Notes: generated from the sequence alone by a model not told the origin. Positions 28,475-45,703 are shown, numbered from the stretch's first letter. The stretch: DNA of 64,000 nt from an uncultured SAR86 cluster bacterium (GCA_902514295.1 CABXQE010000006.1:1-64000), one strand, 5' to 3'. Program-made: numbers and translations.

Positions 28475-29506
28475 TTATTTTACTAGTTCCATTTGAGATT
28501 TGGCGTATTGAATAGCTTCATTAAAATTATCTGGGAATTGAAATTTATATCTTTTAGCAATCTTTTGAGCCCTTGCAAAACTAGATACTGAAGTACACCA
28601 ATTTTTTAAAGTATAGCTTGCTATACCTAACTGCATGTAAGGAGCATAATACCTTTCTCTTAAAGATTCACTTCTTGTCATTGAGTTTACGACTTCGAGC
28701 ATTTCATGTTCTAGTTTCTCCCAATCCTCTTCTTCAAAATAGATCTGTACTAGCCCCAAACCACCGAAAGTATGTAATTTACTGCTGATAACACCCCTCG
28801 CCTGGACACCTCCTCGTATAGTATCTACGTAGCCATCTTGATAATAAAATTTGCTTTCTAACAAGGTTTTTTTAATTTCCTCTCTCGGTTTATTTAATTT
28901 AAACAATGCCTTACCTTTCGTGTACAAAAAAGACGCACGTTCAATATCTGAAAGCTTTTCGTTTTGCAATTGCTTATCTATCTGCGATATAGCTTTTTCC
29001 AGTCTAATAACATTTTTAGAAGAAAGGTTTTTTACTTTTATTTTTTTTAATATTCTTGCAAGCTCAGAGTTACGGAGCATTAAATTATCTTCTAGTCCTT
29101 CAATCCTAAACTTAATAATGACCCTTTCCCCTTTTGTAGAAATAGCTTCGCCTTTCTCATCCTTTCCAGGTATATATTCATAAGAATACACAGAATTCAA
29201 AGCACTTCGAGAAAACAGGTCTTTCTTTTTTTCGGAGGTATGATCTATCCAAATAGTTCTAGGATCTTCAACTTCTCCTTTTTCATTAACAGTAAATTCA
29301 ATTAGTAAATTTGCTTCTATAGATTGTCTAAGTGCCCCAATCGGATAAGTAGGTACAGATTGTTTTATAGGAACAGGTTTTAATAAATCTTTAGCTTCTC
29401 TACATTCTTCAAGGTTATGATACTTCGATTCATGTGAAGAAATAAGATTGAAAAATAACAACAATAAACTTAAGACTATAATTTTTATAAATTTATTGCT
29501 AATCAA
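28475..29506 (-). CDS. secreted/periplasmic protein with TonB C-terminal-like domain and TPR-like C-terminus
   Basis: N-terminal hydrophobic segment; PVPIKQSVPTYPIGALRQSIEANLLIEFTVNEKGEVEDPRTIW resembles TonB_C; helical repeat region follows. Confidence 0.55.
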   Translation of the reverse strand: MISNKFIKIIVLSLLLLFFNLISSHESKYHNLEECREAKDLLKPVPIKQSVPTYPIGALRQSIEANLLIEFTVNEKGEVEDPRTIWIDHTSEKKKDLFSRSALNSVYSYEYIPGKDEKGEAISTKGERVIIKFRIEGLEDNLMLRNSELARILKKIKVKNLSSKNVIRLEKAISQIDKQLQNEKLSDIERASFLYTKGKALFKLNKPREEIKKTLLESKFYYQDGYVDTIRGGVQARGVISSKLHTFGGLGLVQIYFEEEDWEKLEHEMLEVVNSMTRSESLRERYYAPYMQLGIASYTLKNWCTSVSSFARAQKIAKRYKFQFPDNFNEAIQYAKSQMELVK

Positions 29507-30905
29507 TGTAAATGCTACCTTTTGAAATTACTGTGACTATATCTCTAGTGTGTTTAATGTTAAGGCTTGGATTGTTATTTAGAATAAGAAGATCAGCCCT
29601 CTTTCCAACCTCTATACTTCCCATCTTACCATCTAAATTAAAGAACTCAGCCGGCGTTATAGTAGCTGCTTTTATAGCCTCAATGGGGGTTAAGCCAGCT
29701 TCGACTAATAACTCTAGCTCTTTATGAAGACTAAAACCTGGGGTTAGAAAGCCTATAGGGGTATCGGTACCCGCAATTACCTTTACTTTATGTTTATTGA
29801 ATAAATTAACAATATTAAAACTCCACTTCTCATAGTTCTTATAACTCTCATTTATAGGTTGCTCGGCTAAGTTATTAGAGTTCTGCAACCATTCTGTTTT
29901 TACCTCTTTAGGTAAGAAATTGTATGTTTCTTGCCACTCTTTATTAGCAAAGAACCTTTTGGAACCAACAGTATTAATGGTTAAGGTTGGAGTTTGATAA
30001 ACATTGTTTGAAGCTAAATACTTAATAACCTCATCACATCTTTGTTCATTTATATTCATTAGAGCTTTGGGTCTTTGTAGCCCATGAATCTTAGATCTAA
30101 GAGAAGACCCGGGAAGCAAATCTTCATTCTCTAATAACTTCTTTCTCTTAGTAAGCATGTCCCTTGCTTCCTCTGCACAAGCTAACTCTAAATTTCTAAT
30201 GTGCTGCATGCCATCTAAACCTGCATCTACTGCATCAATTAAATCCATACTTAGTGGTATATGACTAGTAACACGAAGATTTCTTTGCTCAGCTATTTCT
30301 TGAAGTTCTTTAAAGTCTTCAGGAGTTAACATTTCGTATGTTTTAAGAAAAGACACTCCTTCTTGAATTAGATTATCCACTAGCAAGTTTTTATCTGTAT
30401 CTTTACTTACTCCAACTGAGAGTTCAGGGAATCCTGGTTCAGAACCCTTATACACTCTTGGCATTCCATCAATTAACGGGCCGGAATAAAAAAGTCTTGG
30501 TGCCTTTAAAGGATTGTCTTCAGCAAATTCTATAGCAGGTCTAAGTTTCTCTATAACAGCTCCCGTATCTCGAATGCTAGTAATTCCGTTTTTAAGAAAT
30601 AATTTATAAGCGGTTTGGTAATCTAGTTCTGGAATAAAAGTTAAATGCACATGAGCATCCCAAAGGCCTGGGATTATGAACTTTCCCGTCGCATCTATTA
30701 CCGTGTCGTCTTCTTGGAAAGCTACTTCTTTTAATCTTGTTTTGCCTATATAGACGATTTCATCTTCCTGCAAAACAAGAGTCATGTTTATTCTTTTTGG
30801 GTTCTCTGCATCAATTAAGGTAGCATTTTCTATAATAACCCTAGACGAAACATGAAAGCTAAATAGAAGTAGGAAGAAGGTTTTTACGAAGATGGATAAT
30901 CTCAT
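29499..30905 (-). CDS. exported amidohydrolase (imidazolonepropionase-like)
   Basis: Signal peptide; GKFIIPGLWDAHVHL, AGTDTPIGFLTPGFSLHKELELLVEAGLTPIEAIKAATITPAEF, GKRADLLILN. Confidence 0.88.
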   Translation of the reverse strand: MRLSIFVKTFFLLLFSFHVSSRVIIENATLIDAENPKRINMTLVLQEDEIVYIGKTRLKEVAFQEDDTVIDATGKFIIPGLWDAHVHLTFIPELDYQTAYKLFLKNGITSIRDTGAVIEKLRPAIEFAEDNPLKAPRLFYSGPLIDGMPRVYKGSEPGFPELSVGVSKDTDKNLLVDNLIQEGVSFLKTYEMLTPEDFKELQEIAEQRNLRVTSHIPLSMDLIDAVDAGLDGMQHIRNLELACAEEARDMLTKRKKLLENEDLLPGSSLRSKIHGLQRPKALMNINEQRCDEVIKYLASNNVYQTPTLTINTVGSKRFFANKEWQETYNFLPKEVKTEWLQNSNNLAEQPINESYKNYEKWSFNIVNLFNKHKVKVIAGTDTPIGFLTPGFSLHKELELLVEAGLTPIEAIKAATITPAEFFNLDGKMGSIEVGKRADLLILNNNPSLNIKHTRDIVTVISKGSIYID

Positions 30906-31079
30906 TTAGTTATAACCTTACAGATGGTTGGTCTAAAGAATTTTAATAATTAACCTATTAAATCACTTATCGACATTTGTTTCATCTGGTTCTCAGTACC
31001 TTAAATCAATAAGCTGCTTTTGCTTACCTATAATTAGTATAGGTGGGGCACATAATCTGAGCCTATCGAGGCTATAAAT

Positions 31080-31310
31080 TTAAGAATTGCTGTTTATGTA
31101 ATCTACAGCGTTTTTTACAGTTTGGATATTTTCTGCTTCTTCGTCTGGAATTTCTATTTCAAATTCTTCTTCAAAAGCCATAACCAATTCCACGGTATCT
31201 AATGAATCTGCACCTAGATCGTCTATAAATGAAGCTTCTAACTTTACTTCTTCAGCAGAAACACCAAGTTGTTCACAAACAATTTTTTGTACTTTTTCTT
31301 CAATACTCAT
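31080..31310 (-). CDS. acpP: acyl carrier protein
   Basis: 76 aa; [33 protein letters not shown] phosphopantetheine site DSL. Confidence 0.98.
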
Positions 31311-31366
31311 AATTTTTCCTTATTTAATTTTGTATAAAATTACTGAAATAAGTTCTTCAATTTATC

Positions 31367-31393
31367 AAAAGCCCGATAAAAAAACCGGGCTTT
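31367..31393 (-). terminator. putative terminator downstream of the DUF1302-DUF1329 operon
   Basis: AAAGCCCG/CGGGCTTT perfect 8-bp stem (31368-31375 / 31386-31393), T-run on the minus strand. Confidence 0.65.
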
Positions 31394-31412
31394 CTCGGGG
31401 AAAAATAATACT

Positions 31413-32822
31413 TTATCTACGATCTCGTAACTGATCAATATTGAAAATAGAATTTGTCATCGTATCTAGCTTATCCCATGCAGAGTCCACCGTAATAATA
31501 GTTGCACGCTCATCTCTAACATTGGCAATTATTGCTGATCTCCACATAAATCTACCGGTTGTTGGTTCCCAGTCACGTGTATCATCCCAGATACGCCATA
31601 TATCTCCATTCCTATCAACCATTTCCAAGTATTGTGCATAATATGTCTCTTTATCTACATGAACTCGTTTTACAGAATATTGATAAGTTTCTGTAAGATC
31701 AGTAATTTCATAAAGCCAAGTTGGGCGCAACTCCATGTCGACAATCCCTGATAAATTACAAGCATCATCTGAAATTCTGAGTGGGTCATAAACATTGCCA
31801 ACCTCTGGGCCTGCAAGAATGATACCTTCCTTGATTAAAGTGTATTTAAACTTACGTCTATCAGTTTTGAACCAATTTGAACGCCATTCGTCCCAAGTGA
31901 GTTCAAGCCCTGGAGCTATAGGATCTTGACCATTTGTTCCCGTAAGCGCTCTCGTACGACGAAGCGAAGGAATGTAAAGCTTAAAATCATCGTCTTTGTC
32001 GGCATCAGCAAACCTAAGTCTTACTCCCGCCAGACCACGAACATCACGCGGAGATTTGATTAACAGTGCCCCCGCTTCAGTTATGCCTTCAAAGCCTTCA
32101 ACATTCCCTAAAGGTGGTGCACTCACACGTCCAGCCATTCGGCGCCAAAAAATATTCGCTTTATAAATTCTTTCGAGGTTATTTTCGCTATTACACGCTG
32201 CCATATCTATCGTATCAAAGTACAAATCATCAGTACCGACACCATGAGCATTAAAAAGCCAGTTAAGTTCTTCACCATTTTGAGGGTTAATAAATGGTAG
32301 ACCAGCTTCGCTTATAAAACCATGTTCACCATTCTTATCACGGAGCTCCCCCTTTTCATTAATTCTAAAATGATCTGGTTCAAGCGCCTTAGTTGCATCC
32401 AATCGCGCTCGTTGCATGTAATAATGATTAGTTGGAACAATACGTATACCTTTGATCGGCGTCCATTCAGAAGTTAATCGATCTATCCAATACTGCGGCA
32501 GGTAGTCATTCACCCAAGGCAATGAATCTATATTTTCTTTCGTGATAATAAAACCAGGTTTCAATTCAGCGGGAAGTGTTTCTTTCGCTAACAAAGATGA
32601 CGCTGTATATCCACGGAAATCTGCCCAATCTTTAGCAAGTGCCCTCACTTCTGCATTATCTATTGCGGCAACCCATGCTGCATGTTCGGGCAGTCCAGTT
32701 TCAGCAGCAAAAGATTTCCAATTATCAATCCACTCATCACTAGCCTTAATGGTTAATGCTATTAAGCACAAAGATACCAGGGTTAGATTGGTTAAAAATG
32801 TTTTTAGTTTATAAATTTTCAT
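31413..32822 (-). CDS. DUF1329-family outer-membrane/periplasmic protein
   Basis: Signal peptide; GRVSAPPLGNVEGFEGITEAGALLIKSPRDVRGLAGVRLRFADADKDDDFKLYIPSLRRTRALTGTNGQDPIAPG. Confidence 0.85.
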   Translation of the reverse strand: MKIYKLKTFLTNLTLVSLCLIALTIKASDEWIDNWKSFAAETGLPEHAAWVAAIDNAEVRALAKDWADFRGYTASSLLAKETLPAELKPGFIITKENIDSLPWVNDYLPQYWIDRLTSEWTPIKGIRIVPTNHYYMQRARLDATKALEPDHFRINEKGELRDKNGEHGFISEAGLPFINPQNGEELNWLFNAHGVGTDDLYFDTIDMAACNSENNLERIYKANIFWRRMAGRVSAPPLGNVEGFEGITEAGALLIKSPRDVRGLAGVRLRFADADKDDDFKLYIPSLRRTRALTGTNGQDPIAPGLELTWDEWRSNWFKTDRRKFKYTLIKEGIILAGPEVGNVYDPLRISDDACNLSGIVDMELRPTWLYEITDLTETYQYSVKRVHVDKETYYAQYLEMVDRNGDIWRIWDDTRDWEPTTGRFMWRSAIIANVRDERATIITVDSAWDKLDTMTNSIFNIDQLRDRR

Positions 32823-32837
32823 CAGTATTCTCCTAAG

Positions 32838-34706
32838 TTAAAATTGATAAGTTAATGAAAACTCAACATAGTCAGATTGTCTGTACAATGCGAGCAGTCC
32901 TTCTTCTTCGTCACCATCAAATATTCCCACTTCAATTCTTGGAATTAATTTGTTTCCCAAAGCTGAAAAAGTAAATCGTTGGCGATAAGCAAAGCTATCC
33001 TTGCTAAGGTCCCAAACGGCTAAACCATCAAGGATCACATTGTCGTTACGCAACCCGAATGTATAGGTTTGTGTAAAATATTGCTGGTTTTCTTCAACAT
33101 CTAACATTGCGTATGGCGCTTGGAACATCAAATTTTTATGATCCTTCGTCTTAATGTTAAAAAATTGTGAAGTTATAAAAATTGAACTACGTTGATTTTT
33201 CCAAGCAGATAACCAAAGATTATAATCAAATCCGATTAAGGTAGAAATTTGATCACGATAAGTGACCATATCTGCCTTGGTTCCAATTAACGCTGGTGTT
33301 CCCTTTGCTGACAGTCCAGGTATAAAAGGGTCATTTATAACTTGACGGTTAAATGCTTTGTCGAATTCATGAGCCACCTCTAGTCGAAGAACTGGCGATA
33401 CACTTTTAGGTCCAAACTTCAGCTCGCTCATATCTCGAGTAAACGAAAAACCAACTGTTTTTTGGCGTTCTGTGAAATCCATATCAAAATCGGCGGTAAC
33501 TGAGCAAGGAAATCCACCAGCAGCAGGATTTAGAATATCTAAACAACCAAAAGGAATAAGTGGAAAATCTCCGGGCGCTGCTGTCCCGCCTGCAAGAGAC
33601 TGCAAGAAATCAACATATTGACCTGGTGCATGAATAGCACCGATGGTCGTTGGAACATCTAGTGGCACATTTGCAACAGAAGCTGCTGGATCGTTGATAA
33701 ATGACCCAACATGAAGAGTAGCGCCTGTGAGCACAACAACTGGTAAATCTTGATATCCATGGAATGCATTCAGTGTTGCCTCACCACCAAATGCGCCAAA
33801 TTTCAAACGTAAACCTATTTCTTGATTTTTCCAATCTTCCACTTCTTTTTCGTTAAGACGAGCACCTAGTAAAGGCATTCCAAATCCAGTTTGGCCTTCA
33901 ATTAGTCGTGGAAAAGGAAACCCAAAGGCGCCTCCCGAAGACTGATCATTTGGAGTCGGATTGTTGATAACGAATTCTGAATGCCTAACTTCCGGTATAT
34001 AAATAAGCTCCAGTGCAACATCATTTGATATGTCTACGTTAATTGCTACCGTCCAAGCTGGTATTCTAATTTCATCGGTATCCGCCAAAAGAGTCCTTTG
34101 ACGCAAATCTTGTGCATTTAAAATATCTAAGAGCCTAAGGCCATCTGCCTGCCCCCATCCTCTTTGAAATTTACCTATTTTTACAGAAGCCGAACCATCG
34201 TCGTTAGTAAACCTTATAGATAACTCACGCAATATTTCATCATCAAAATCGTCTAGAAGCTCATTTTCTTTTCCTGAAGCCCCAAAAGGATCAGGAAGTT
34301 GATATGTCCCATCGCTAGAAGTTGACATACTAAAGCGGTCTAGAAAGGCACTCTGCGGAGATGTGAAGTTCTGCATCGCTGGTGCCCTAAACTCACCGTC
34401 ATCTAAATCGTAAAACCTATCTCCCCTCAGCCAAACATCACCAACAACTGTAACGTTATTATTAGGAGACCACTCAGCCTGTAATTCTAAGAGAAACTGT
34501 GAAGGTCCCTGCCCTCTGGATGAATCATCAAGTCTATCAATATAAGCACCTGTACCGGCCTTTAAGCGACCTCCAAACCAAAAGTCTTCTGCATAGGCAG
34601 GGGGGGCTACTAAGAACAAAGACAACAAAGAGGCTGAGACTATTGAGGTTAACCTCTTTAATCTAGTTTTTGTTTCTAAGGTTATTTTTATAATTATATT
34701 ATTCAT
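32838..34706 (-). CDS. DUF1302-family outer-membrane beta-barrel protein
   Basis: Signal peptide; WFGGRLKAGTGAYIDRLDD; KIGKFQRGWGQADGLRLLDILNAQDLRQRTLLADTDEIRIPAW; C-terminal aromatic ending FSLTYQF. Confidence 0.85.
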   Translation of the reverse strand: MNNIIIKITLETKTRLKRLTSIVSASLLSLFLVAPPAYAEDFWFGGRLKAGTGAYIDRLDDSSRGQGPSQFLLELQAEWSPNNNVTVVGDVWLRGDRFYDLDDGEFRAPAMQNFTSPQSAFLDRFSMSTSSDGTYQLPDPFGASGKENELLDDFDDEILRELSIRFTNDDGSASVKIGKFQRGWGQADGLRLLDILNAQDLRQRTLLADTDEIRIPAWTVAINVDISNDVALELIYIPEVRHSEFVINNPTPNDQSSGGAFGFPFPRLIEGQTGFGMPLLGARLNEKEVEDWKNQEIGLRLKFGAFGGEATLNAFHGYQDLPVVVLTGATLHVGSFINDPAASVANVPLDVPTTIGAIHAPGQYVDFLQSLAGGTAAPGDFPLIPFGCLDILNPAAGGFPCSVTADFDMDFTERQKTVGFSFTRDMSELKFGPKSVSPVLRLEVAHEFDKAFNRQVINDPFIPGLSAKGTPALIGTKADMVTYRDQISTLIGFDYNLWLSAWKNQRSSIFITSQFFNIKTKDHKNLMFQAPYAMLDVEENQQYFTQTYTFGLRNDNVILDGLAVWDLSKDSFAYRQRFTFSALGNKLIPRIEVGIFDGDEEEGLLALYRQSDYVEFSLTYQF

Positions 34707-34773
34707 TTAGATTTCCTCCTTTTTTTAATGTTATTCGTTAATTTTTGATAAATCTTTATCGAATTCTTGATGG

Positions 34774-35688
34774 TCATTTAGTACCTCCTATTTCAATGGT
34801 ATTGGCGTTCTTTCCTGTCTTGGCGGGTCGTGGATAGAGACCTAGAGTAGGGACAATCGCAGGGTCGTGTGAAAGATGCTTATCCAATCTGGAATTCCAA
34901 ATTCTGACCAAACGATAAAAGGGAACATTCGGGTAAAGATGGTGCACAAGGTGATAGTTTTGATACATCATCAATGGTGAAAGAAGCCATTCCATACCTT
35001 CTCGAATGCTAGTAGCTCTGTAAGCATCTTCCCTTTCTGATATTTCATTTGGTACGTGAGGTAGGTAGACAAAAATAAACGAAATAAAGAAAAATGAAAT
35101 GCGCTGCGGTATTATCCAAAACATGAGTAATTCCGTTAAATAACCATTAATGATTAACCAGGGCCATGCAATTAGGGTTGCAAAAAACATTATTATGACG
35201 TTTCGTTTTTCAGATTTTGGGCGATCTTTCCAATACCCAAAATACTTCCAACCGTATATCAAATCTATAAAAGGCCATTTAAGCGGGCGCAGCCAAGCAG
35301 GCCCACTTTGTACAACTCGATCAGCCTCATCCCCTTCACCATTCGCATTGCGGTGATGGCGAAAATGGATGAAACGCATTAATTCAAACGCTACAAGTGA
35401 AGAGAAGTACAAAAATGTAATACGCCCAATCCAAAGATTGAGTTGTTTACTCCTCCCGAGAGAAGAGTGAATAGCGTCATGCATAGGTGAAAACAGAAAA
35501 TATCCAGATGTTCCATTTATCAAGCAGGCTGCTAAATAAGAAATGTGTCCATAAATCGCTGCCCAAGTTGCTCCGAACATGAACCCTGCACATATAAAAA
35601 ATAGAATAATCGTGGGCCATGCAAATTCAGGCTCTTCCTTTAGGGCATTAAATAGATCTTCATTGTTAATTAAGTCATTACTGTCCAC
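34774..35688 (-). CDS. membrane fatty-acid desaturase/hydroxylase superfamily (di-iron)
   Basis: Histidine boxes HDAIH, HFRHH, HLVHH; multi-TM. Confidence 0.85.
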   Translation of the reverse strand: MDSNDLINNEDLFNALKEEPEFAWPTIILFFICAGFMFGATWAAIYGHISYLAACLINGTSGYFLFSPMHDAIHSSLGRSKQLNLWIGRITFLYFSSLVAFELMRFIHFRHHRNANGEGDEADRVVQSGPAWLRPLKWPFIDLIYGWKYFGYWKDRPKSEKRNVIIMFFATLIAWPWLIINGYLTELLMFWIIPQRISFFFISFIFVYLPHVPNEISEREDAYRATSIREGMEWLLSPLMMYQNYHLVHHLYPNVPFYRLVRIWNSRLDKHLSHDPAIVPTLGLYPRPAKTGKNANTIEIGGTK

Positions 35689-35692
35689 AACT

Positions 35693-37333
35693 TTATGCCT
35701 CCATTAGATAATTTTCGTATGTAATTCTTAAGGGTTTCTTATCAATCTTTCCGGTTGCCGTCAGTGGCATTTCGTCGATAAACACCACATCATCCGGAAG
35801 TTGCCATTTTGCGTGTTCACTACTAATGATATCCAGTATGCTGGCCTTACTGGGATCGCAACCCTCTTTCTTGACCACGATTAATAAAGGCCGCTCTTCC
35901 CATTTCACGTGCTTAACACCCAGGCATGCAGCAATTTGCACTTCGGGATGCCCAACCGCGGTATTTTCAATATCAACCGAAGAAATCCACTCACCGCCAG
36001 ATTTGATAATGTCTTTAGCACGATCAGTAATTTGCATAAATCCATGTTTATCAATAGTCGACACATCACCTGTGTCGAACCAGCCTTCACTGTCCAGAGC
36101 ACTTTCTTCTGCCTTATAATAACGTTCAACTACCCTAAGACCACGTACCATCAATTTTCCAAATGCTTCTCCATCGTGTGGAAGAGAATTTCCTTCGTCA
36201 TCAACAATCTTCATCTCCAAACCAAAAGGTGGTCGCCCTTGTTTGCATCTGACTTTTATTCGCTCTTCAAAACTTAGTTCATCCATGAAAGGTAAAGAGC
36301 AATTAAAAGTACCCACAACAGTCTCAGTCATTCCCCACCCGTGCATAACTTCCGCATCATACTTTTCTTCAAAACTCTCGATCATTGATTGTGGAACCGC
36401 AGAGCCTCCTATAAAAATTTTAGTCATACTTGGAATTTGCAGAGTATTGTTATCTAAATGATCTAGTAAAACTGTCATCACAGTAGGAACAGCACAGGTC
36501 TTATTGCAAGACTCTGCCAGAATAATGTCATAAATACTTTTACCGTCCATATGAGGACCAGGAAGAACTAATTTACCTCCAACCATAGGGATGCTGTGAG
36601 GCAGCCCCCATCCATTAGCATGGAACATAGGAACAATTAACAAAAAAGAATCTCTAGCACTCAGGTCCATTACATCTACATGGGCTGTTACCATGGCATG
36701 ATTAAGATTAGATTGGTGTGAATAGAGCACACCTTTAGGGTTTCCTGTAGTGCCAGACGTGTAACACAAAGAAGATGCTGTATCAGCATTAAATAAGGGC
36801 CAGTCGAAATCACACTCTTCCCTTCCTAGCAATTCTTCATAACAATAAACTGGAACTCCTATCTTTTCCATATCATCTGTCATATGTTCTTTGTCTGTCA
36901 TTACAACTAGACCTTCAAGCATAGGTAATCTATCAAGGACATTAGCAATTACGCTAACAAAGCTTGTGTCGACAAATATAAATCGATCTTCAGCATGATT
37001 AACAATATATTCAATTTGATCAGGGAAAAGGCGAGGATTTAAGGTATGGCAAATTGCTCCTATGCCGCTCAATCCATACCAACATTCCAAATGACGCCAA
37101 GTATTCCATGCCATAGTGCCAATACAGTCTCCAGCCTTTATATCTAGACCCGTCAAAGCATTGGCTAATTGAGAAGTTCGATCATAAAGTTTGGCATATC
37201 CAATTCGATGGACCCCACCCTCAACTGAATTTGTTACCACCTCTACATCGCCATTCCATGTCGCAGCATGCTGCAATATTTCAATAACACTGAATTTCTT
37301 TTTTTGCATTAACCCTTTAATTGCAGAAGTCAT
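35693..37333 (-). CDS. acyl-CoA synthetase (AMP-binding; AlkK/medium-chain-like)
   Basis: YTSGTTGNPKGVLYSHQS, GWGMTET, GWFDTGDV, ITDRAKDIIKSGGEWISSVDIEN. Start moved from 37396 to MTSAIKGLMQKKKFS. Confidence 0.92.
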   Translation of the reverse strand: MTSAIKGLMQKKKFSVIEILQHAATWNGDVEVVTNSVEGGVHRIGYAKLYDRTSQLANALTGLDIKAGDCIGTMAWNTWRHLECWYGLSGIGAICHTLNPRLFPDQIEYIVNHAEDRFIFVDTSFVSVIANVLDRLPMLEGLVVMTDKEHMTDDMEKIGVPVYCYEELLGREECDFDWPLFNADTASSLCYTSGTTGNPKGVLYSHQSNLNHAMVTAHVDVMDLSARDSFLLIVPMFHANGWGLPHSIPMVGGKLVLPGPHMDGKSIYDIILAESCNKTCAVPTVMTVLLDHLDNNTLQIPSMTKIFIGGSAVPQSMIESFEEKYDAEVMHGWGMTETVVGTFNCSLPFMDELSFEERIKVRCKQGRPPFGLEMKIVDDEGNSLPHDGEAFGKLMVRGLRVVERYYKAEESALDSEGWFDTGDVSTIDKHGFMQITDRAKDIIKSGGEWISSVDIENTAVGHPEVQIAACLGVKHVKWEERPLLIVVKKEGCDPSKASILDIISSEHAKWQLPDDVVFIDEMPLTATGKIDKKPLRITYENYLMEA

Positions 37334-37399
37334 TTTTCGTTTACGAAATAAATCTTGATTTATATAAACTTTATCCCTTATTATATATTTATGCAATAA

Positions 37400-37456
37400 C
37401 TATTATATAAATATATAATTTAATTGTATGTTTACTCAAATCTACTGTATAAACAC
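37400..37456. promoter_or_regulatory. candidate operator in the divergent ligase/Ycf48 promoter
   Basis: Shares CTATTATATAAATA (37400-37413) and ATGTTTA-N15-TATAAACAC-like 29-mer (37428-37456) with the ADH/TetR intergenic region. Confidence 0.4.
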
Positions 37457-37476
37457 TTAATAGCAATCAAATAATT

Positions 37477-38562
37477 ATGAAATCAATTTTTAATAAGTAC
37501 GTAATTTTGCTCTTATTAATTACTGAAATTTCTCCAGGATGGGCCTTAGATAGTGATCAGGATAAATTAAGCACCGAATTAAAGTTATCGCAATCTAGTA
37601 CTAATATAGTCGATAATAAAAAAGATCGCGTTCGTTTTATTCCTGATAACTTATTCAGCGTTGATTTTGTTGACGAATCGCATGGATGGGCTTCTGGATA
37701 TTACGGCACTATTCTAAAAACAATGGATGGAGGGAGAAGTTGGACCCACATCTCTCTTCCTCATACTGATTTAATTAGACGTATACAATTTTTAGATAAA
37801 GAATCTGGATGGCTTGTTACACATCGTGGCCGTATTATGAGTAGTAATGACGGCGGAGATACTTGGGAAACTAACTACTTAGAGGATGAACAAACCAATC
37901 TTAGAAATATTAAATTTATAGATAGAGATGTTGGTTGGGCTGTTGGGCATGAAGGAACTATTCTCTATACAAATGACGGCGGCAAAAATTGGACCAATCA
38001 ATCTTTAAGTAATTATAAAGGTAGGGATCTGCCTCGGCTAAATGGCTTAACTATTTTGAGTAAAACAAGAGCTATGTTAGCCGGAGAATTCGGTGTAATT
38101 GCTGAAACTACAGATGCAGGTAAAACTTGGAAGATAATTTCTTCATCAGATATCACAGCTACATTCACTGAAATTGAACAAGTAAACAACTCCATATTGG
38201 CAGTAGGGCTCGACGGAGTCGTGGTACAAGTTAATACCAACAGCATTGATATGCTTAACTCAACTAAGGATGGAAAATCAACACAAATAAAGGTCTTAGA
38301 TTCGGGTGTAAACAATCATCTCTTCGATATTGTATCCAATAAGAAAGGTGAAGGTATTGTAGTAGGTTTAGCAAACATCCTTAAAATTAAGAACGGAAAT
38401 CAATTGAATAAGATTGAAATCAACCTACCAGATCGAAATTATATGTATTTCATGGGAGCCGCACCTATTTCACAATCGAAGTATGTTTTAGTGGGAGCCC
38501 AAGGATTAGTAGTTACCCTAGATACAGAAAATTCAGAAATTAAGGGGCTGGTTAAGTGGTAG
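37477..38562 (+). CDS. Ycf48-like beta-propeller exported protein
   Basis: Signal peptide; repeats SVDFVDESHGWASGYYGTILKTMDGGRSWTHI, FIDRDVGWAVGHEGTILYTNDGGKNW. Confidence 0.85.
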   Translation: MKSIFNKYVILLLLITEISPGWALDSDQDKLSTELKLSQSSTNIVDNKKDRVRFIPDNLFSVDFVDESHGWASGYYGTILKTMDGGRSWTHISLPHTDLIRRIQFLDKESGWLVTHRGRIMSSNDGGDTWETNYLEDEQTNLRNIKFIDRDVGWAVGHEGTILYTNDGGKNWTNQSLSNYKGRDLPRLNGLTILSKTRAMLAGEFGVIAETTDAGKTWKIISSSDITATFTEIEQVNNSILAVGLDGVVVQVNTNSIDMLNSTKDGKSTQIKVLDSGVNNHLFDIVSNKKGEGIVVGLANILKIKNGNQLNKIEINLPDRNYMYFMGAAPISQSKYVLVGAQGLVVTLDTENSEIKGLVKW

Positions 38563-38625
38563 TTTTAGTGATTTATACTACTAATATAGCCTTCCATCTA
38601 CAGGTTTTTATAAAAGGGTTTTGAG

Positions 38626-40938
38626 ATGGTTAAAACAATAGCAAATACCGTCATACAATACAGGGTTGCTATATTAATTATAGCCTTCGTCATTACATCA
38701 ATAGCGGGTTATTTCGCCCTCACAGGTGTAACCTTACGTGCTTCTTTAAATGAGATGCTTCCTTCAAACCATCAAAATGTGAAATTGTATGAAGAGTTTA
38801 GTGACAAGTTTGGTGGTGTAAACACAGTCCTAGTAATGGTAGAAAACCAAAGAGGTACAGTATATAACAGAGAATTTTTAGAAAAATACAAACACATTTC
38901 AGATGCTTTTTACTTCCATGAAGCAAATCGTAAAGCATTATTTGAAGCAGTTAATCTGAGAAAAACTAGAGCGGTTGCAGGTTCGCAAGGTCAAATTTTT
39001 GTTAAACCAATCATGTGGCCGAATCTCCCTAAAACAGAAGCTGAAATGGATCAGTTCAGATTACTGATACGTGGACAGTTTAATGGGTATTTAATTTCAT
39101 TAGATGAAAGATCGCTGATGATCGCTGCAGAGTTTAAAGACAATGTAGACACGGCAGCACTAGTGAATTTTGTTGAAGATATACGTGCTGAATATGAAGA
39201 TGGTACTGTCAAATTATCTATAGTTGGTAGGCCCATTTTACTGGGTGAAGTAAAACAAGAGTTACCTAAAATGATCTCAATTTTTGCTGTTTCTGTTCTT
39301 GTTATCTCTGTCTTTCTCTATTTATTTTTTCGTACATGGGTAGGTGTAGTAGTGCCTATGCTTGTTGCCTTCTCAGTAACAGTTTTAGGATTCGGCGTAA
39401 TTGGCTTCTCTGGCTATAACATGGATCCATTGCTGTTGTTACTACCATTCTTTGTTTTCGCCACCGTACTGTCACATTCGGTTCAATTTGTTTCTAGAGT
39501 ATTTGATGAATTAGCTAAAGATAAAAAAATGAAAGACGCTGTAAAGACAGGTTTGGAGCGGTTGTTGTTTCCAAGTACAGCAGCCGTAATAACTTCTGCA
39601 GCAGGTTTCACTGTCTTAGCGCTGATTGCAATTCCATCCATCCAATTATTAGCCGTCATATGTACAATTTGGTTGCTAACACTAACCCCTGGAATGATAG
39701 TAGCTGCGGCATTTATGAGTTTCTTTAAGAAACCCACTAAATATGAAACAACCCTTCCTTTCCAACCATTCTTGGTCAATTTCTTTGGTGAAAGAATATC
39801 CCGCAATATCTTTTTACCTAGTTTTATTATCCTATTAATTGGAGGTTTCATCATCTCCCAAAATTTAAAGATTGGTGATGCTGTTGGAAGCCCTATTTTG
39901 TGGCCTGACTCCCGATACAACAATGACGTTAGCTCTATCAATTCAAACTATGACCGAATAGGAACAGATGTTTTACAGGCGTATTTTTCAGGAAAAGAAG
40001 AAATCATGCTTAACCCTGATCTTTATCATCAATCTGAAGCTTTTGGCAGGTATATTTATGAACGGGTATTGCCTGCAACTCCAGCATCCAGCCTGACTCC
40101 GATAATAAAAAATATCAATATGGTGTTATGGGAAGGCGACCCTTCCTATCAATTTCTTCCTGATACCAGTGCTGAAGTAGGTTTTAATATTTATATGTTC
40201 AGGTCTAATGGCGAGCCAGGTGACTTTGCTGCATATACGAATACTGACTGGAACATAGGCAAGCTGTCTATTTTCACAAGCGAACATAGCTCGGAAACAG
40301 TGAACGAACTGATGAAATTTGGGAATGAGTTTGTTAATAATTATGACTTTAAAGATGATGAACCAGTCATTAAATTTGCTGGTGGCCAAATAGGGATTAT
40401 TAAAGCAACTAATGATGAAATCGAGCTAAAAGAAAATATTCTATTAATTGCAATTATGATTATTATCATACTCAATCTTATTTGGCTTTACAGATCAGTG
40501 AAGTTAGGTGTCATAATAACTTTTGTTTTAATAACATCTCATTTTATAACTATGAGTGTTATGACGCTTTTAGATGTTGGAATGAATCTTAATACCCTTC
40601 CTCTTGCCGCCTTGGGATTGGGGCGAGGTGTAGATTACAGTATTTACATGGCTGATCGTATACGTGATGAAATGCGCAGAGGGTTAGATTTTTCTAGAGC
40701 TTCAACCCTAGCTTTTAATACCTCAGGTATTGCTATTATTGTTACTGCAATGACAATGATATTACCACTCTTGTCATGGTATTTTCTGTCTCCTATTCGT
40801 TTTCAGGCAGAGATGGGGCTGCTTTTAGCCATAATCTTGGCCTTCAACATGCTAGGTGCTATCACTATCGTGCCAGCAGCAATTAAAATCCTTGAACCAA
40901 AAGGGTTTAATTTTTATCCAAAGGCATCAACAACTTAA
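38626..40938 (+). CDS. MMPL/RND-superfamily transporter
   Basis: 770 aa with 12-TM pattern; ASLNEMLPSNHQNVKLYEEFSDKFGG; AALGLGRGVDYSIYMADRIRDEM. Confidence 0.9.
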   Translation: MVKTIANTVIQYRVAILIIAFVITSIAGYFALTGVTLRASLNEMLPSNHQNVKLYEEFSDKFGGVNTVLVMVENQRGTVYNREFLEKYKHISDAFYFHEANRKALFEAVNLRKTRAVAGSQGQIFVKPIMWPNLPKTEAEMDQFRLLIRGQFNGYLISLDERSLMIAAEFKDNVDTAALVNFVEDIRAEYEDGTVKLSIVGRPILLGEVKQELPKMISIFAVSVLVISVFLYLFFRTWVGVVVPMLVAFSVTVLGFGVIGFSGYNMDPLLLLLPFFVFATVLSHSVQFVSRVFDELAKDKKMKDAVKTGLERLLFPSTAAVITSAAGFTVLALIAIPSIQLLAVICTIWLLTLTPGMIVAAAFMSFFKKPTKYETTLPFQPFLVNFFGERISRNIFLPSFIILLIGGFIISQNLKIGDAVGSPILWPDSRYNNDVSSINSNYDRIGTDVLQAYFSGKEEIMLNPDLYHQSEAFGRYIYERVLPATPASSLTPIIKNINMVLWEGDPSYQFLPDTSAEVGFNIYMFRSNGEPGDFAAYTNTDWNIGKLSIFTSEHSSETVNELMKFGNEFVNNYDFKDDEPVIKFAGGQIGIIKATNDEIELKENILLIAIMIIIILNLIWLYRSVKLGVIITFVLITSHFITMSVMTLLDVGMNLNTLPLAALGLGRGVDYSIYMADRIRDEMRRGLDFSRASTLAFNTSGIAIIVTAMTMILPLLSWYFLSPIRFQAEMGLLLAIILAFNMLGAITIVPAAIKILEPKGFNFYPKASTT

Positions 40939-40975
40939 GTTGTTTTACGTTTCTTGATTAATTCTCTGCAGAGAA
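40929..40975 (+). terminator. two adjacent palindromes in the MMPL/ALDH convergent spacer (possible terminator)
   Basis: AACAACTTAAGTTGTT (40929-40944) and TTCTCTGCAGAGAA (40962-40975), both perfect. Confidence 0.35.
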
Positions 40976-40997
40976 GGTAACTTATAGAGCTGTTAAA

Positions 40998-42437
40998 TTA
41001 GTTCATAATATAAGTTGATTTAAAGCTTTGATAACTATCTACAGCTTCTGGGCCTAACTCTCGCCCTATTCCACTTCCTTTAACACCACCAAACGGTGCT
41101 CCTATAGAAGGCACGTAGCCATTAACTCCAACTGTGCCGCAATTAACTTTCTTAGCTACTTTTAAGGCATGTTCATTATTAGAGCTCCAAACAGACCCAC
41201 CAAGACCGAATTGAGAATCATTGGCCAAAGAAATTGCTTCTTCTTCTCCTTCGTAAGGAATAATAGACAATACTGGGCCAAATATTTCTTCTCTTGAAAT
41301 AACCGCATCATTAGCAACATCAGTAAACACTGTTGGTTCAACAAACCAGCCTCCCGGAGTATTTTTGGGACGCCCACCTCCTGCTATGAGCTTTGCTTCT
41401 TTTTTTCCAGTGGTGATATAAGCCTCAACACGTTCACGATGAGGCTCTGAAGCTAAAGGACCCATTTGAGTTTCTGGATCCATAGCATCTCCAATTACCA
41501 TAGCAGATGCTAATTCAGCAACGGCTTCAGAGATCAGCTTATATTGACTCTTTGGTGCTAATATTCGTGTCCCGTTGAAACAGGTTTGTCCATTATTAAG
41601 AAGACAGGCTGTTGGAACACCTTCAATAAAAGTATCAATATCTGCATCTTCAAGTACTATAGCAGCCGATTTTCCTCCTAACTCTAAAGTTACAGGTCTT
41701 AATAAACCTCCACAAGTTTCTGCAACCGACCTGCCTGCAGCACAAGATCCTGTAAAGGCAACTTTATCAACGTCTGGGTGAGACACGAGATAAGCACCTA
41801 CATCACGGTCAGCAGCTACCCAATTAAGGACCCCTGCCGGAACACCGGCTTCAAGTGCAGCCTCAGCCAGAATATAACTATCTAAAACCGTACCTGGAGA
41901 CGGCTTAATAACAAGAGTACAACCAGCAGCCATCGCAGGAGCAATTTTACTAATAGCCAAGGTAACAGGGAAATTCCATGGGACAATTGCAGCCACTACT
42001 CCGAAAGGAACTTTTTCAACCAAAGTTTCCTTACCCATTTGTGAAGGGCGTATATCCAAGTTGGTTTCAATATTATTTGCCTCTTCAACATAATACTGCA
42101 ATAAACCAGCAGAATATTGAGATTCAAATGCTGTACTCAGTCCAATCGGCATCCCATTTTGTGTACTAACCGTCTGAGCTAACTCATCACCGCGTTTCGC
42201 TAAAGCAGTGAGAAAACGTTTCATAATTTCAGCACGTTCACTAGCTTTGCTATTTGCCCATTCTCCACAATCAAAAGCAGCACGTGCAGCGAATACGGCA
42301 GCATCTATATCTGCATTAGATCCTTCTGGTGCCGTTGCTACGAATTCACCAGTTGATGCATTCATAACTTCAAATGTTTGAGCGGTTGATGGAGACACCC
42401 ATTCATTTCCAATAAAAAATTTATCTCTACTTTTCAT
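40998..42437 (-). CDS. aldehyde dehydrogenase (NAD(P)+)
   Basis: VPWNFPVTLAISKIAPAMAAGCTLVIKPSPGT, VTLELGGKSAAIV, NNGQTCFNGTRI, EEIFGPVLSI. Confidence 0.96.
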   Translation of the reverse strand: MKSRDKFFIGNEWVSPSTAQTFEVMNASTGEFVATAPEGSNADIDAAVFAARAAFDCGEWANSKASERAEIMKRFLTALAKRGDELAQTVSTQNGMPIGLSTAFESQYSAGLLQYYVEEANNIETNLDIRPSQMGKETLVEKVPFGVVAAIVPWNFPVTLAISKIAPAMAAGCTLVIKPSPGTVLDSYILAEAALEAGVPAGVLNWVAADRDVGAYLVSHPDVDKVAFTGSCAAGRSVAETCGGLLRPVTLELGGKSAAIVLEDADIDTFIEGVPTACLLNNGQTCFNGTRILAPKSQYKLISEAVAELASAMVIGDAMDPETQMGPLASEPHRERVEAYITTGKKEAKLIAGGGRPKNTPGGWFVEPTVFTDVANDAVISREEIFGPVLSIIPYEGEEEAISLANDSQFGLGGSVWSSNNEHALKVAKKVNCGTVGVNGYVPSIGAPFGGVKGSGIGRELGPEAVDSYQSFKSTYIMN

Positions 42438-42524
42438 TTTTTCTCCTTTTTTTCTCTTATTATAAAGTTCTATATTTATAGAAATTCTCTTAAAAATTAT
42501 GAATAATCTTAAGAAAAACTATAT

Positions 42525-43625
42525 TTACATTCGAACAATGGCTTTAATAGTTCTGCCTTTTTCTGAATCCTCGATAGCTTGATTAATATTTTCAAAATCG
42601 TAGAACTTAATTAAGCGATCAAAGGGAAACAGACCTTCTTCAAAATAGTTAATTAACTTAGGGATAAGGGTGTCTGGATAAGCAGACCCTTCAACAATCC
42701 CTATTAGTTTTCTCCCTCCGGTAAAGAAATGTAATTCGTTAAGCTCGATCTCAAAATCAGGTGGGCAAGCACCAAGGATTCCACAGGTGCCTCGTGGAGC
42801 CAGACATAAAACAGCATCACGAATTACATCTGGCAATCCAGTTGTGTCTAGAGCAGACATTACTCCGTGAGTAGTTAATTCAATTATTTTTTCTATTAAA
42901 TTTGTAGTCTTGTTTGGATTAAAGGCGTGTGTTGCTCCCAGTTCTAGAGCCATCTCTAGGCGATCATCATTTAAATCAACGGCAATAATAGTAGTGGCTC
43001 CTTGCATTTTCGCAGCCATTACTGACGACAATCCAACAGACCCAGTTCCAAAAACTAAAAAAGAGGACCTCTCTTTAACAGGAAGTGCATTAATAACGGC
43101 TCCAGCTCCGGTTAAGATGCCGCAACCAAGAGGCCCAAGCAAACTTAAATCTACATCTTTAGACACCTTTACAATATTTAACTCACGACAAAGAGAAAAG
43201 GTTGCGAAAGATGATTGCCCAAAAAAGTTACCATGTACTGGACTATTATCATTTGATAATGAGGTAGATCCATCTTCTCTTACAGCACCAAAGTTACGGG
43301 CCATAAATTCATAACAATAGGCAGGTTCTTTCTCAATACAGCTCTCACATGAACCACATGAATTGAAAGATAAAACCACATGGTCACCTGGTTTTACTTT
43401 AGAAACTTTAGACCCAATTTTCTCTACAACCCCCGCCCCTTCATGCCCTAAAGTAACAGGCAAAGGCACTGGAAGCATGCCAGCCTGGACTACGAGATCC
43501 GTATGACAGACACCAGAAGCAACTATGCGTACTAGAATTTCATCATCTCTAGGGTCTTCAATATCTAACTCCATCAATGATAATGGCTTTCCAATTTCAG
43601 TTACAACCGCTGCAAGAGTTTTCAT
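42525..43625 (-). CDS. zinc-dependent alcohol dehydrogenase (aryl/long-chain alcohol type)
   Basis: GVCHTDLVVQAGMLPVPLPVTLGHEGAGVVEKIG; structural Zn CGSCESC; GTGSVGLSSVMAAK. Confidence 0.94.
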   Translation of the reverse strand: MKTLAAVVTEIGKPLSLMELDIEDPRDDEILVRIVASGVCHTDLVVQAGMLPVPLPVTLGHEGAGVVEKIGSKVSKVKPGDHVVLSFNSCGSCESCIEKEPAYCYEFMARNFGAVREDGSTSLSNDNSPVHGNFFGQSSFATFSLCRELNIVKVSKDVDLSLLGPLGCGILTGAGAVINALPVKERSSFLVFGTGSVGLSSVMAAKMQGATTIIAVDLNDDRLEMALELGATHAFNPNKTTNLIEKIIELTTHGVMSALDTTGLPDVIRDAVLCLAPRGTCGILGACPPDFEIELNELHFFTGGRKLIGIVEGSAYPDTLIPKLINYFEEGLFPFDRLIKFYDFENINQAIEDSEKGRTIKAIVRM

Positions 43626-43688
43626 TAACGACCTCCGTATTAAATTAACAATCTATAGAAATTTTTATAATCTTTAGATTGCTATTAT

Positions 43689-43717
43689 ATGTTTATACTA
43701 TACTATTATATAAATAC
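43689..43717. promoter_or_regulatory. candidate TetR-family operator between ADH and tetR
   Basis: ATGTTTATACTATACTATTATATAAATAC, imperfect dyad; aligns without gaps to 37428-37456. Confidence 0.4.
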
Positions 43718-43864
43718 ATAGTAATAATTAAAATTCTATTACTATTTTCTTTAATAAAAAGTAATTTAATAAAAACAGGTTGAAAAGAATCCTGATATCC
43801 TTAGGTTTAGTTTTTAATTTCTTACTATTTCTTCACACTATAGAGATATAATAAAATTATATTA

Positions 43865-44479
43865 ATGAACAAAAATAGAAGATTACATCCAAAAGAGCGT
43901 CATGAGGAATTAGAAAAAATAATAATTGCTGCAGTTGCGCAGCATGGCATTTCAAGAGTAACTCACTCGCACGTAGCTGAATTAGCCAACGTTTCAGTAT
44001 CAACTGTACATTACTATTTTCACAAACGTAAACACCTTGTCGAATCAGCTATAAATCAAGTAGAAAAAATGCTTATTGATATGTTTGTAGTAAATCTTGA
44101 ACAAGAATCAATTCAAGCTGCTTTAACTGATTTAGCAGCTGCTTTTGTTAAAGAAGGCTTTGAGAACTCTGAATTGATAAAGGTATGGATGGATTGGAGC
44201 TCGGGTATTAATCAAGATGTCTGGCGAGACTATCAAGCTTTGCTTGTAAATCTTCATGGAATGGTTCGTAAAGTACTTGCAAGAGGTAAAAGAGAAAAAA
44301 TGCTACCAAAGGATTTTAATACTATGGCTGCAACTAGGCTTTATATAGGATCAGGACATACATTACAATTGATGATATTTGATGGGGCTAGTAAACGAGA
44401 TTTAGCTATCTTTCAGAATAATATGTTACGTGCAGTTTTTCATTCTGCTGATGTGATCCCAAGCAGCCCTTCAAACTAA
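43865..44479 (+). CDS. TetR-family transcriptional regulator
   Basis: N-terminal HTH IIAAVAQHGISRVTHSHVAELANVSVSTVHYYFHKRKHLVESAI; BetI-like C-terminus. Confidence 0.9.
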   Translation: MNKNRRLHPKERHEELEKIIIAAVAQHGISRVTHSHVAELANVSVSTVHYYFHKRKHLVESAINQVEKMLIDMFVVNLEQESIQAALTDLAAAFVKEGFENSELIKVWMDWSSGINQDVWRDYQALLVNLHGMVRKVLARGKREKMLPKDFNTMAATRLYIGSGHTLQLMIFDGASKRDLAIFQNNMLRAVFHSADVIPSSPSN

Positions 44480-44494
44480 AAAAAGTAGCGTTAG

Positions 44495-45703
44495 TTAATT
44501 TGATTCAGGTTCGAGTGCTGAATAAATTAAAGACCTTAGCTCTCTCCTTACTTGATAGGTAGAAGAAGGTAATAATTGCGTTAAAAAGATAACCAGCATG
44601 TCTTCTTTGGGGTTAATAAAGAAAACGGTGCTTGCGGCCCCACCCCAACCGTATTCTCCAATATCGCTCAAGGATTGAGACTTTGCAGGATCAAGCATTA
44701 CAGAAAACCCTAAACCGAAGCCAACACCAGCATAAGGTGTCTCACTAAAAGAAGATTCACTCATCTCTGTTAAGTCTTTTCCATCAGGGAGGTGGTTGGT
44801 AGCCATTAGCTCAATAGTTTTTCTACCTATTAGTCTTTTTCCATTAAACTCACCTTGATTAAGGATCATGGAAGTAAAGTTATAATAATCGGACATGGTT
44901 GAGAATAGCCCTCCTCCTCCAGAAAACATTTTGGTGCTTAAAAAGGGAGTCTTAAGCAATCTAGGTTCACCTTTAGAGTTATGCTCATAAAGAGACGCTA
45001 ATCTATCTAATTTATCTTCTGGGCAATTAAATCCTGTATCCACCATATCTAGAGGTTCAAAAATATTCTTTGCAAAGTATTCATCAAGTGGCATCCCAGA
45101 CATAACTTCCACTAAATGGCCTAGAACATCTGTCGCTACTGAATAATTCCATTTATCTCCCGGAGAAAACTCTAACGGTAGTTCTGACAATATATCGACG
45201 AATTCTTGCAGGTTGTTAGCTTGTTGAACTTTGGTTTTTCTGTAAGCAGCATCTACATTAGTTCTGTACATAAAATCATAAGTTAACCCGGACATATGAC
45301 TTAATAAATCTCTAATCGTCATGTGTCGCTTAGGCCTAGAAGTTAAAAAATTTGGATAGATTCCAGACTTATAAACCCTTAATTTCTTCCATGACGGTAT
45401 ATACCAGTGGACTGGATCATCTAACCTGAATTTACTTTTTTCATAAAGTTGCATGATAGAAATGCTAGTGACGGCCTTAGTCATGGAATAAATCCTAAAT
45501 ATTGCGTCTTCTTGCATAGGCTTCTTATTTTCTCTATCCATCAAGCCCAAGGAATCTAGATAAGCCACTTTTCCCTTTCTAGCAACTAATGTCATCGTAC
45601 CTATGTACTTTCCGTCTTTTACATAAGTCTCATCTAGATATGATCTAACGTTTTCTAAAACTGAAGAATCCAATCCAACAGATTCAGGGCTTACTACTTT
45701 CAT
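44495..45703 (-). CDS. serine hydrolase, beta-lactamase class C/esterase-like
   Basis: SMTKAVTS (SxxK), WNYSVATDVLG (YxN-type), GWGGAAST. Start moved from 45841 to ATG 45703. Confidence 0.88.
   Translation of the reverse strand: MKVVSPESVGLDSSVLENVRSYLDETYVKDGKYIGTMTLVARKGKVAYLDSLGLMDRENKKPMQEDAIFRIYSMTKAVTSISIMQLYEKSKFRLDDPVHWYIPSWKKLRVYKSGIYPNFLTSRPKRHMTIRDLLSHMSGLTYDFMYRTNVDAAYRKTKVQQANNLQEFVDILSELPLEFSPGDKWNYSVATDVLGHLVEVMSGMPLDEYFAKNIFEPLDMVDTGFNCPEDKLDRLASLYEHNSKGEPRLLKTPFLSTKMFSGGGGLFSTMSDYYNFTSMILNQGEFNGKRLIGRKTIELMATNHLPDGKDLTEMSESSFSETPYAGVGFGLGFSVMLDPAKSQSLSDIGEYGWGGAASTVFFINPKEDMLVIFLTQLLPSSTYQVRRELRSLIYSALEPESN

Follow-up and report, generated by a model that had tools for sequence, protein, structure and literature searches.

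Introduction

In the TOL upper pathway (xylMABC), a membrane di-iron methyl hydroxylase is followed by a Zn alcohol dehydrogenase (ADH) of the benzyl-alcohol type and then by an aldehyde dehydrogenase (ALDH). The alkBGHJKL system combines a hydroxylase, alcohol and aldehyde oxidation, a CoA ligase and outer-membrane passage, and its AlkJ is FAD-dependent. Castellaniella defragrans carries the AmeABCD transporter, of the DUF1302/DUF1329/Ycf48/MMPL kind, on a monoterpene island together with GeoA, GeoB and the ligase GeoC (PMC4109377, PMC6394551). Deletion of AmeABCD lowered monoterpene tolerance and altered Nile Red accumulation, and the transporter was interpreted as an efflux or tolerance system (PMC6394551). 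In Pseudomonas putida, DUF1302 and DUF1329 proteins work together with an efflux-type transporter and a periplasmic protein (PP_0765/PP_0766/PP_2018/PP_2019) and are required to grow on Tween20 (PMC10866462). Here we analyse a nine-gene cassette that resembles these systems, located at positions 31363-44479 of a 64,000-nucleotide stretch of DNA (the window) from an uncultured SAR86 cluster bacterium (GCA_902514295.1 CABXQE010000006.1:1-64000). The host genome (G000) is a metagenome-assembled genome (MAG) of 1.23 Mb in 58 contigs, 79% complete. Judged by its size, GC and gene content, it probably belongs to a SAR86-like order of gammaproteobacteria, with a presumably marine habitat.

The cassette has the same hydroxylase, Zn ADH and ALDH series as xylMABC, but its predicted hydroxylase, a FADS-fold enzyme, belongs to another subfamily; XylA reductase is absent, and a CoA ligase and an Ame-type transporter are added. 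With alkBGHJKL it shares the overall logic, but the nine genes hold neither an AlkB-family sequence nor a rubredoxin partner, a Zn ADH takes the place of the FAD-dependent AlkJ, and DUF1302 that of AlkL. The functional analogy to alkBGHJKL drawn in an earlier note on this DNA is for these reasons weak, while its remark that the di-iron enzyme is a different one stands. Because the ADH is of the benzyl/allyl-alcohol type, the ame+geoABC terpene island or the xylMBC/TOL upper pathway are closer analogues. The transporter set is of an already known kind, that of AmeABCD. Like the Castellaniella island, the cassette is laterally acquired and has the same four transporter parts (DUF1302, DUF1329/LolA-like, Ycf48-like and HAE3 RND), and in both these are accompanied by a CoA ligase, an ALDH and an ADH of the allyl-alcohol type (PMC4109377, PMC6394551). 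It differs in its first step (a FADS di-iron oxygenase versus CtmAB or LDI), in its layout (two divergent pairs versus one ABCD run) and in having no ring-cleavage genes, in a host genome of ~1.2 Mb. The P. putida set differs in being split over two loci, and the available part of its description has no FADS enzyme alongside (PMC10866462). Among the data examined, the cassette is nearly matched in just one other distant lineage, the MAG NP1070.

Results

Composition sets the nine genes apart from the rest of the genome. Pooled, they use CGN and AGR arginine codons in a ratio of 110:76, that is, 59% CGN (110/186). The share is 14% in the left flank and 17% in the right, and 348 genome genes pooled give 12.5%. 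Against a larger background (~1.07 Mb of genome DNA, 685 genes) with 13.8% CGN, the binomial P is ~1e-46. Each of the nine genes lies at or above the 99th percentile of CGN share. The earlier note had remarked by eye on an excess of CGN-Arg over the AGA/AGG of the flanks, and the count bears this out strongly; the uniform composition that it had named among the grounds for abandoning a lateral origin was not found, all nine genes being foreign. Since GC content is only mildly raised (0.36-0.42 versus 0.365), GC alone would have missed the cassette.

Absence from a sister site accompanies this foreign composition, as in a genomic island. The segment is bordered in the window by a ceramidase and a beta-lactamase-fold gene. 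In the same-genus genome G005 these two genes are neighbours, and the positions corresponding to 28488 and 44517 are just 26 bp apart, with DNA identities of 88% and 89% on the two sides of the empty site (L070). A second genome, G001, has a different small gene at this place. In the host order, DUF1302 is present in 2 of 203 genomes. The congener G002, an independent MAG, carries AmidoH1-ACP-DUF1329-DUF1302-FADS on one contig, with DUF1302 93% and DUF1329 98.5% identical to the window proteins. The presence/absence pattern in sister genomes fits a gain before the split of G000 and G002, and likewise a gain followed by loss in the sisters; ancestral presence does not fit well. As a separate observation, the last 48 residues of the G002 FADS enzyme (L072 3-143) are just 65% identical to those of the window, despite its 93% and 98.5% identical neighbours.

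A near-copy of the cassette occurs in another class. NP1070, named Rhodobiaceae and alphaproteobacterial, carries MMPL-Ycf48-ligase-FADS-DUF1302-DUF1329 in the gene order of the window, with proteins 69-87% identical, versus a median of 43% and a 90th percentile of 59% for reciprocal-best-hit proteins of NP1070 and the host genome. The host RpoB is 66% identical to that of a named gammaproteobacterium and 58-59% to those of two alphaproteobacteria. DNA identity of 78-85% extends across ~8 kb and stops at window position 31363 (L003 8028); in NP1070, a tRNA-Arg(TCT) gene lies 76 bp from this end point. Trees of DUF1329 and of MMPL, the latter including plasmid cassettes, join the window and NP1070 at 100/100, so that gene-tree placement, suggested earlier as a check, agrees with transfer; other relatives of these two proteins, in other alpha- and gammaproteobacteria, reach ~40-47% identity. 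DUF1302 occurs in 1 of 18 genomes of the order of NP1070, and its cassette genes are codon-foreign there too (97th-100th percentile). A third-party donor for both lineages is therefore the likely and simplest reading. Relatives of the ADH and ALDH at 62-67% identity on alphaproteobacterial plasmids hint at an alphaproteobacterial source.

All nine open reading frames were found where the earlier note had placed them (31413-44479), and each of its family assignments passes the Pfam cut-off. The predicted FADS-fold membrane di-iron oxygenase/hydroxylase (34774-35688, minus strand) matches the FA_desaturase profile and has the motifs HDAIH, HFRHH and HLVHH, that is, the HxxxH, HxxHH and HxxHH boxes of the membrane FADS fold, which are kept across 10 aligned sequences. 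In NCBIfam it comes closest to CrtR and GntB, which are hydroxylases, and to the ketolase CrtW. A PDB sequence search returned no match. In a predicted model (predicted local distance difference test score 80), the nearest PDB fold is a chloroplast motor complex subunit, followed by AlkB; neither Pfam, NCBIfam nor PDB sequences gave a match to AlkB, and the likeness is one of fold only. A relative in G521 lies beside ring-hydroxylating dioxygenase genes. Looking for a pathway shared by the FADS neighbours in other genomes, we found none; several loci have an AraC-type regulator instead. Plasmid matches of the enzyme include no TOL-type record, and its relatives on viral contigs are limited to two at 37%. 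Among 369 genomes of the class, both others with this type of DUF1329 also carry a FADS relative, with a chance of ~5e-4 (computed by hand, assuming that both searches drew the same genomes). In another gammaproteobacterium (L146 8376-10244), a distant FADS-type relative is fused to FAD-binding and 2Fe-2S domains, and this fusion points to reductase-fed oxygenation.

The ADH (42525-43625, minus; Pfam ADH_N/ADH_zinc_N) is, judged from its sequence, a benzyl/allyl-alcohol Zn dehydrogenase of the AreB/XylB/GeoA kind. It resembles benzyl alcohol dehydrogenase more than class I/III enzymes, with bit scores of 369 for 1F8F and 388 for 5TNX versus at most 221 for liver-type ADH, and a 62% identical relative from Rhizobium adjoins a benzaldehyde dehydrogenase. 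The ALDH (40998-42437, minus; Pfam Aldedh) is 67% and 63% identical to ALDHs on sphingomonad plasmids, the 63% one sharing its region with an alkane 1-monooxygenase gene. The acyl-CoA ligase (35693-37396, minus; Pfam AMP-binding), called AlkK-type in the earlier note, is DmdB/PRK06018-like and 85% identical to the NP1070 protein (L003); its nearest solved structure is 6IHK, which we take to be DmdB, and the DmdB-type 3-(methylthio)propionyl-CoA ligase ranks second among its NCBIfam models. A TetR-family regulator (43865-44479, plus; Pfam TetR_N) closes the cassette.

All four Ame-type transporter families are encoded together (Pfam): an AmeB-like, LolA-like periplasmic carrier with DUF1329 and LolA_like matches (31413-32822, minus; 87% identical to L003), an AmeA-like DUF1302 outer-membrane barrel (32838-34706, minus; 79%), an AmeC-like exported beta-propeller of the PSII_BNR/Ycf48 type (37477-38562, plus; 71%) and an AmeD-like MMPL/HAE3-type RND inner-membrane transporter (38626-40938, plus; 82% to the part present in L003), whose best NCBIfam match is HAE3 TIGR00921 (126 bits, below the cut-off of 352). 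DUF1302-DUF1329 and Ycf48-MMPL stand on opposite strands with the FADS and ligase genes between them; because the four genes are not on one strand, we call the transporter Ame-like and not a strict member. Plasmids of Aromatoleum, Vibrio, Methylibium and Pseudomonas, reached via the MMPL search, also carry all four genes together. A plasmid search with DUF1302 and DUF1329 gave no match at the sensitivity used, and viral contigs held no DUF1302 or ligase relatives. That such sets recur near catabolic genes, as the earlier note had stated, was seen in relatives, where the four genes stand beside beta-oxidation, meta-cleavage or ring-hydroxylating genes. In G564 they adjoin ring-hydroxylating dioxygenase genes, and in G755 a DUF1329 relative lies beside catechol 2,3-dioxygenase, a hydratase, a decarboxylase and a BphD/HsaD-like hydrolase.

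The insertion relative to G005 spans ~16 kb (28489-44516), and so the limits set in the earlier note (31413-44479) hold for the nine genes but not for its extent. The left 3 kb are host-type DNA with a TonB_C-domain protein (28475-29506, minus), an amidohydrolase (29499-30905, minus), whose homologues adjoin the acyl carrier protein (ACP) gene in G002 and lie near BlaC in G012, and an overlooked host-type acpP of 76 amino acids (~31083-31310, minus). Because the codons of the neighbouring TonB_C protein and amidohydrolase are host-type, we place the start of the foreign block between acpP and DUF1329. This acpP copy lies outside the block that was transferred; it adjoins the cassette in G002 as well (G002:C77) and is absent from the NP1070 copy. 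In both G000 and G002, the contigs with fabG and fabF are broken where the household acpP would lie, from which we infer that the window acpP is a duplicate. The household acpP of G000 was apparently lost in an assembly gap. A conserved 270-bp stretch (31050-31320) was considered as an RNA gene and rejected, as Rfam gave no match and the region is acpP.

Elsewhere in the host genome, a second CGN-rich block (L189; G000:C10, ~20.6-34.4 kb) encodes a polysaccharide-synthesis epimerase, a DegT aminotransferase, an amidotransferase-domain protein and an ABC transporter, and is probably another acquired island. Two further CGN-rich genes (L153; G000:C33:3436-5775), for a 3-hydroxyacyl-CoA dehydrogenase-thioesterase fusion and a beta-keto acid cleavage enzyme, possibly represent carnitine-type catabolism of foreign origin.

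Discussion

Our results indicate, with a probability of roughly 0.6, that 31363-44479 is a lateral cassette joining an Ame-type transporter to a peripheral oxidation pathway for a hydrophobic compound. The lateral acquisition proposed in the earlier note is supported by codon use, the empty site, order-wide absence, the trees and the cross-class near-copy, and it would have taken place in an ancestor of the host species and its congener G002. For the chemistry of the di-iron enzyme, the sequence of steps and the substrate class, we infer the following. A terpenoid or alkyl-aromatic would first be hydroxylated by the FADS-fold enzyme at a methyl group in allylic or benzylic position; the ADH would convert the alcohol to the aldehyde and the ALDH the aldehyde to the acid, which the ligase would turn into a CoA thioester for central degradation. 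TetR would regulate the cassette, and the electron donor and downstream degradation would have to come from the host. By analogy with its relatives, the transporter probably moves a hydrophobic compound across the membranes, either as import or as protective efflux; both directions are kept here, since studies of relatives support one as well as the other. Of the uptake and oxidation originally proposed, then, oxidation is well motivated as an interpretation, while uptake is one of two possible directions, the data on relatives pointing to efflux (PMC6394551) and to a growth requirement (PMC10866462).

Several observations weigh against this proposal. Every NCBIfam match of the FADS enzyme is far under the cut-off (72, 41 and 50 bits for CrtR, CrtW and GntB, versus 475, 350 and 380). 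The cassette has no gene for a ferredoxin, rubredoxin or reductase that could supply electrons to the di-iron enzyme, and none for downstream ring or chain degradation. No integrase was found among the subset of window open reading frames scanned, and no repeats within each boundary stretch, a search that did not cover repeats common to both ends. The NP1070 contig breaks off inside MMPL, so that ALDH, ADH and TetR are not seen there, and both NP1070 and the host are MAGs. Past the cassette (L003 8028-14548) this contig is a mosaic: its tRNA-Arg and ADH genes match alphaproteobacteria of its own order, and its kinase, amidohydrolase and RPE65-type oxygenase genes match the host's family. We rejected a plain mis-binned host contig because of the tRNA-Arg and ADH matches, and the contig may be a chimaera.

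It could be argued that the locus is instead a lipid or fatty-acid module, with the FADS enzyme desaturating or hydroxylating acyl chains (perhaps on the extra ACP), the ligase activating fatty acids, the transporter moving membrane lipids or long-chain fatty acids, and ADH and ALDH handling fatty alcohols and aldehydes. The FA_desaturase fold, the long-chain acyl-CoA ligase family of the ligase, the adjoining acpP and the Tween20 requirement of the P. putida genes (PMC10866462) agree with this. However, the ACP is of host type, beyond the transferred block and missing from the NP1070 copy, the best family matches of the FADS enzyme are hydroxylases and a ketolase, its relatives were found in aromatic catabolic settings, and the ADH is of the benzyl/allyl type; we therefore think that a lipid role is unlikely. 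Still less probable is detoxification instead of growth, in which the transporter would export a toxic hydrophobe and the enzymes merely inactivate it. The reduced monoterpene tolerance and altered Nile Red accumulation after AmeABCD deletion (PMC6394551) and the lack of downstream degradation genes favour it, but the product of a CoA ligase is a catabolic intermediate, and the P. putida homologues are required to grow on Tween20 (PMC10866462). From MAG data, from NP1070 contig genes that resemble both lineages and from a duplicated acpP that breaks assemblies, one might suspect that the cassette was inherited vertically and lost in parallel on a massive scale, or that it is an artefact of assembly, but this is hardly credible given native flanks on the host contig 93-97% identical to sister proteins, the same arrangement in the independent MAG G002, the absence of DUF1302 from 201 of 203 genomes of the order and foreign codon use in nine of nine genes.

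Returning to a transferred oxidation cassette, it is tempting to propose, though only tentatively, that two bacterioplankton lineages with small genomes, belonging to different classes, each received one and the same block in one piece from a third donor. With a FADS-fold hydroxylase of an uncharacterised subfamily at its core, this block would let them take up and oxidise a terpenoid or alkyl-aromatic otherwise unusable to them. What makes the finding most interesting is the transfer across classes: an intact catabolic-plus-transport cassette entered lineages with small genomes, which are probably marine and streamlined and in which gene gain is usually held to be rare. Moreover, the poorly understood DUF1302/DUF1329/Ycf48/MMPL transporter is here paired with defined oxidation enzymes, and thus its substrate and direction of transport could be tested with the nine genes in a laboratory host.

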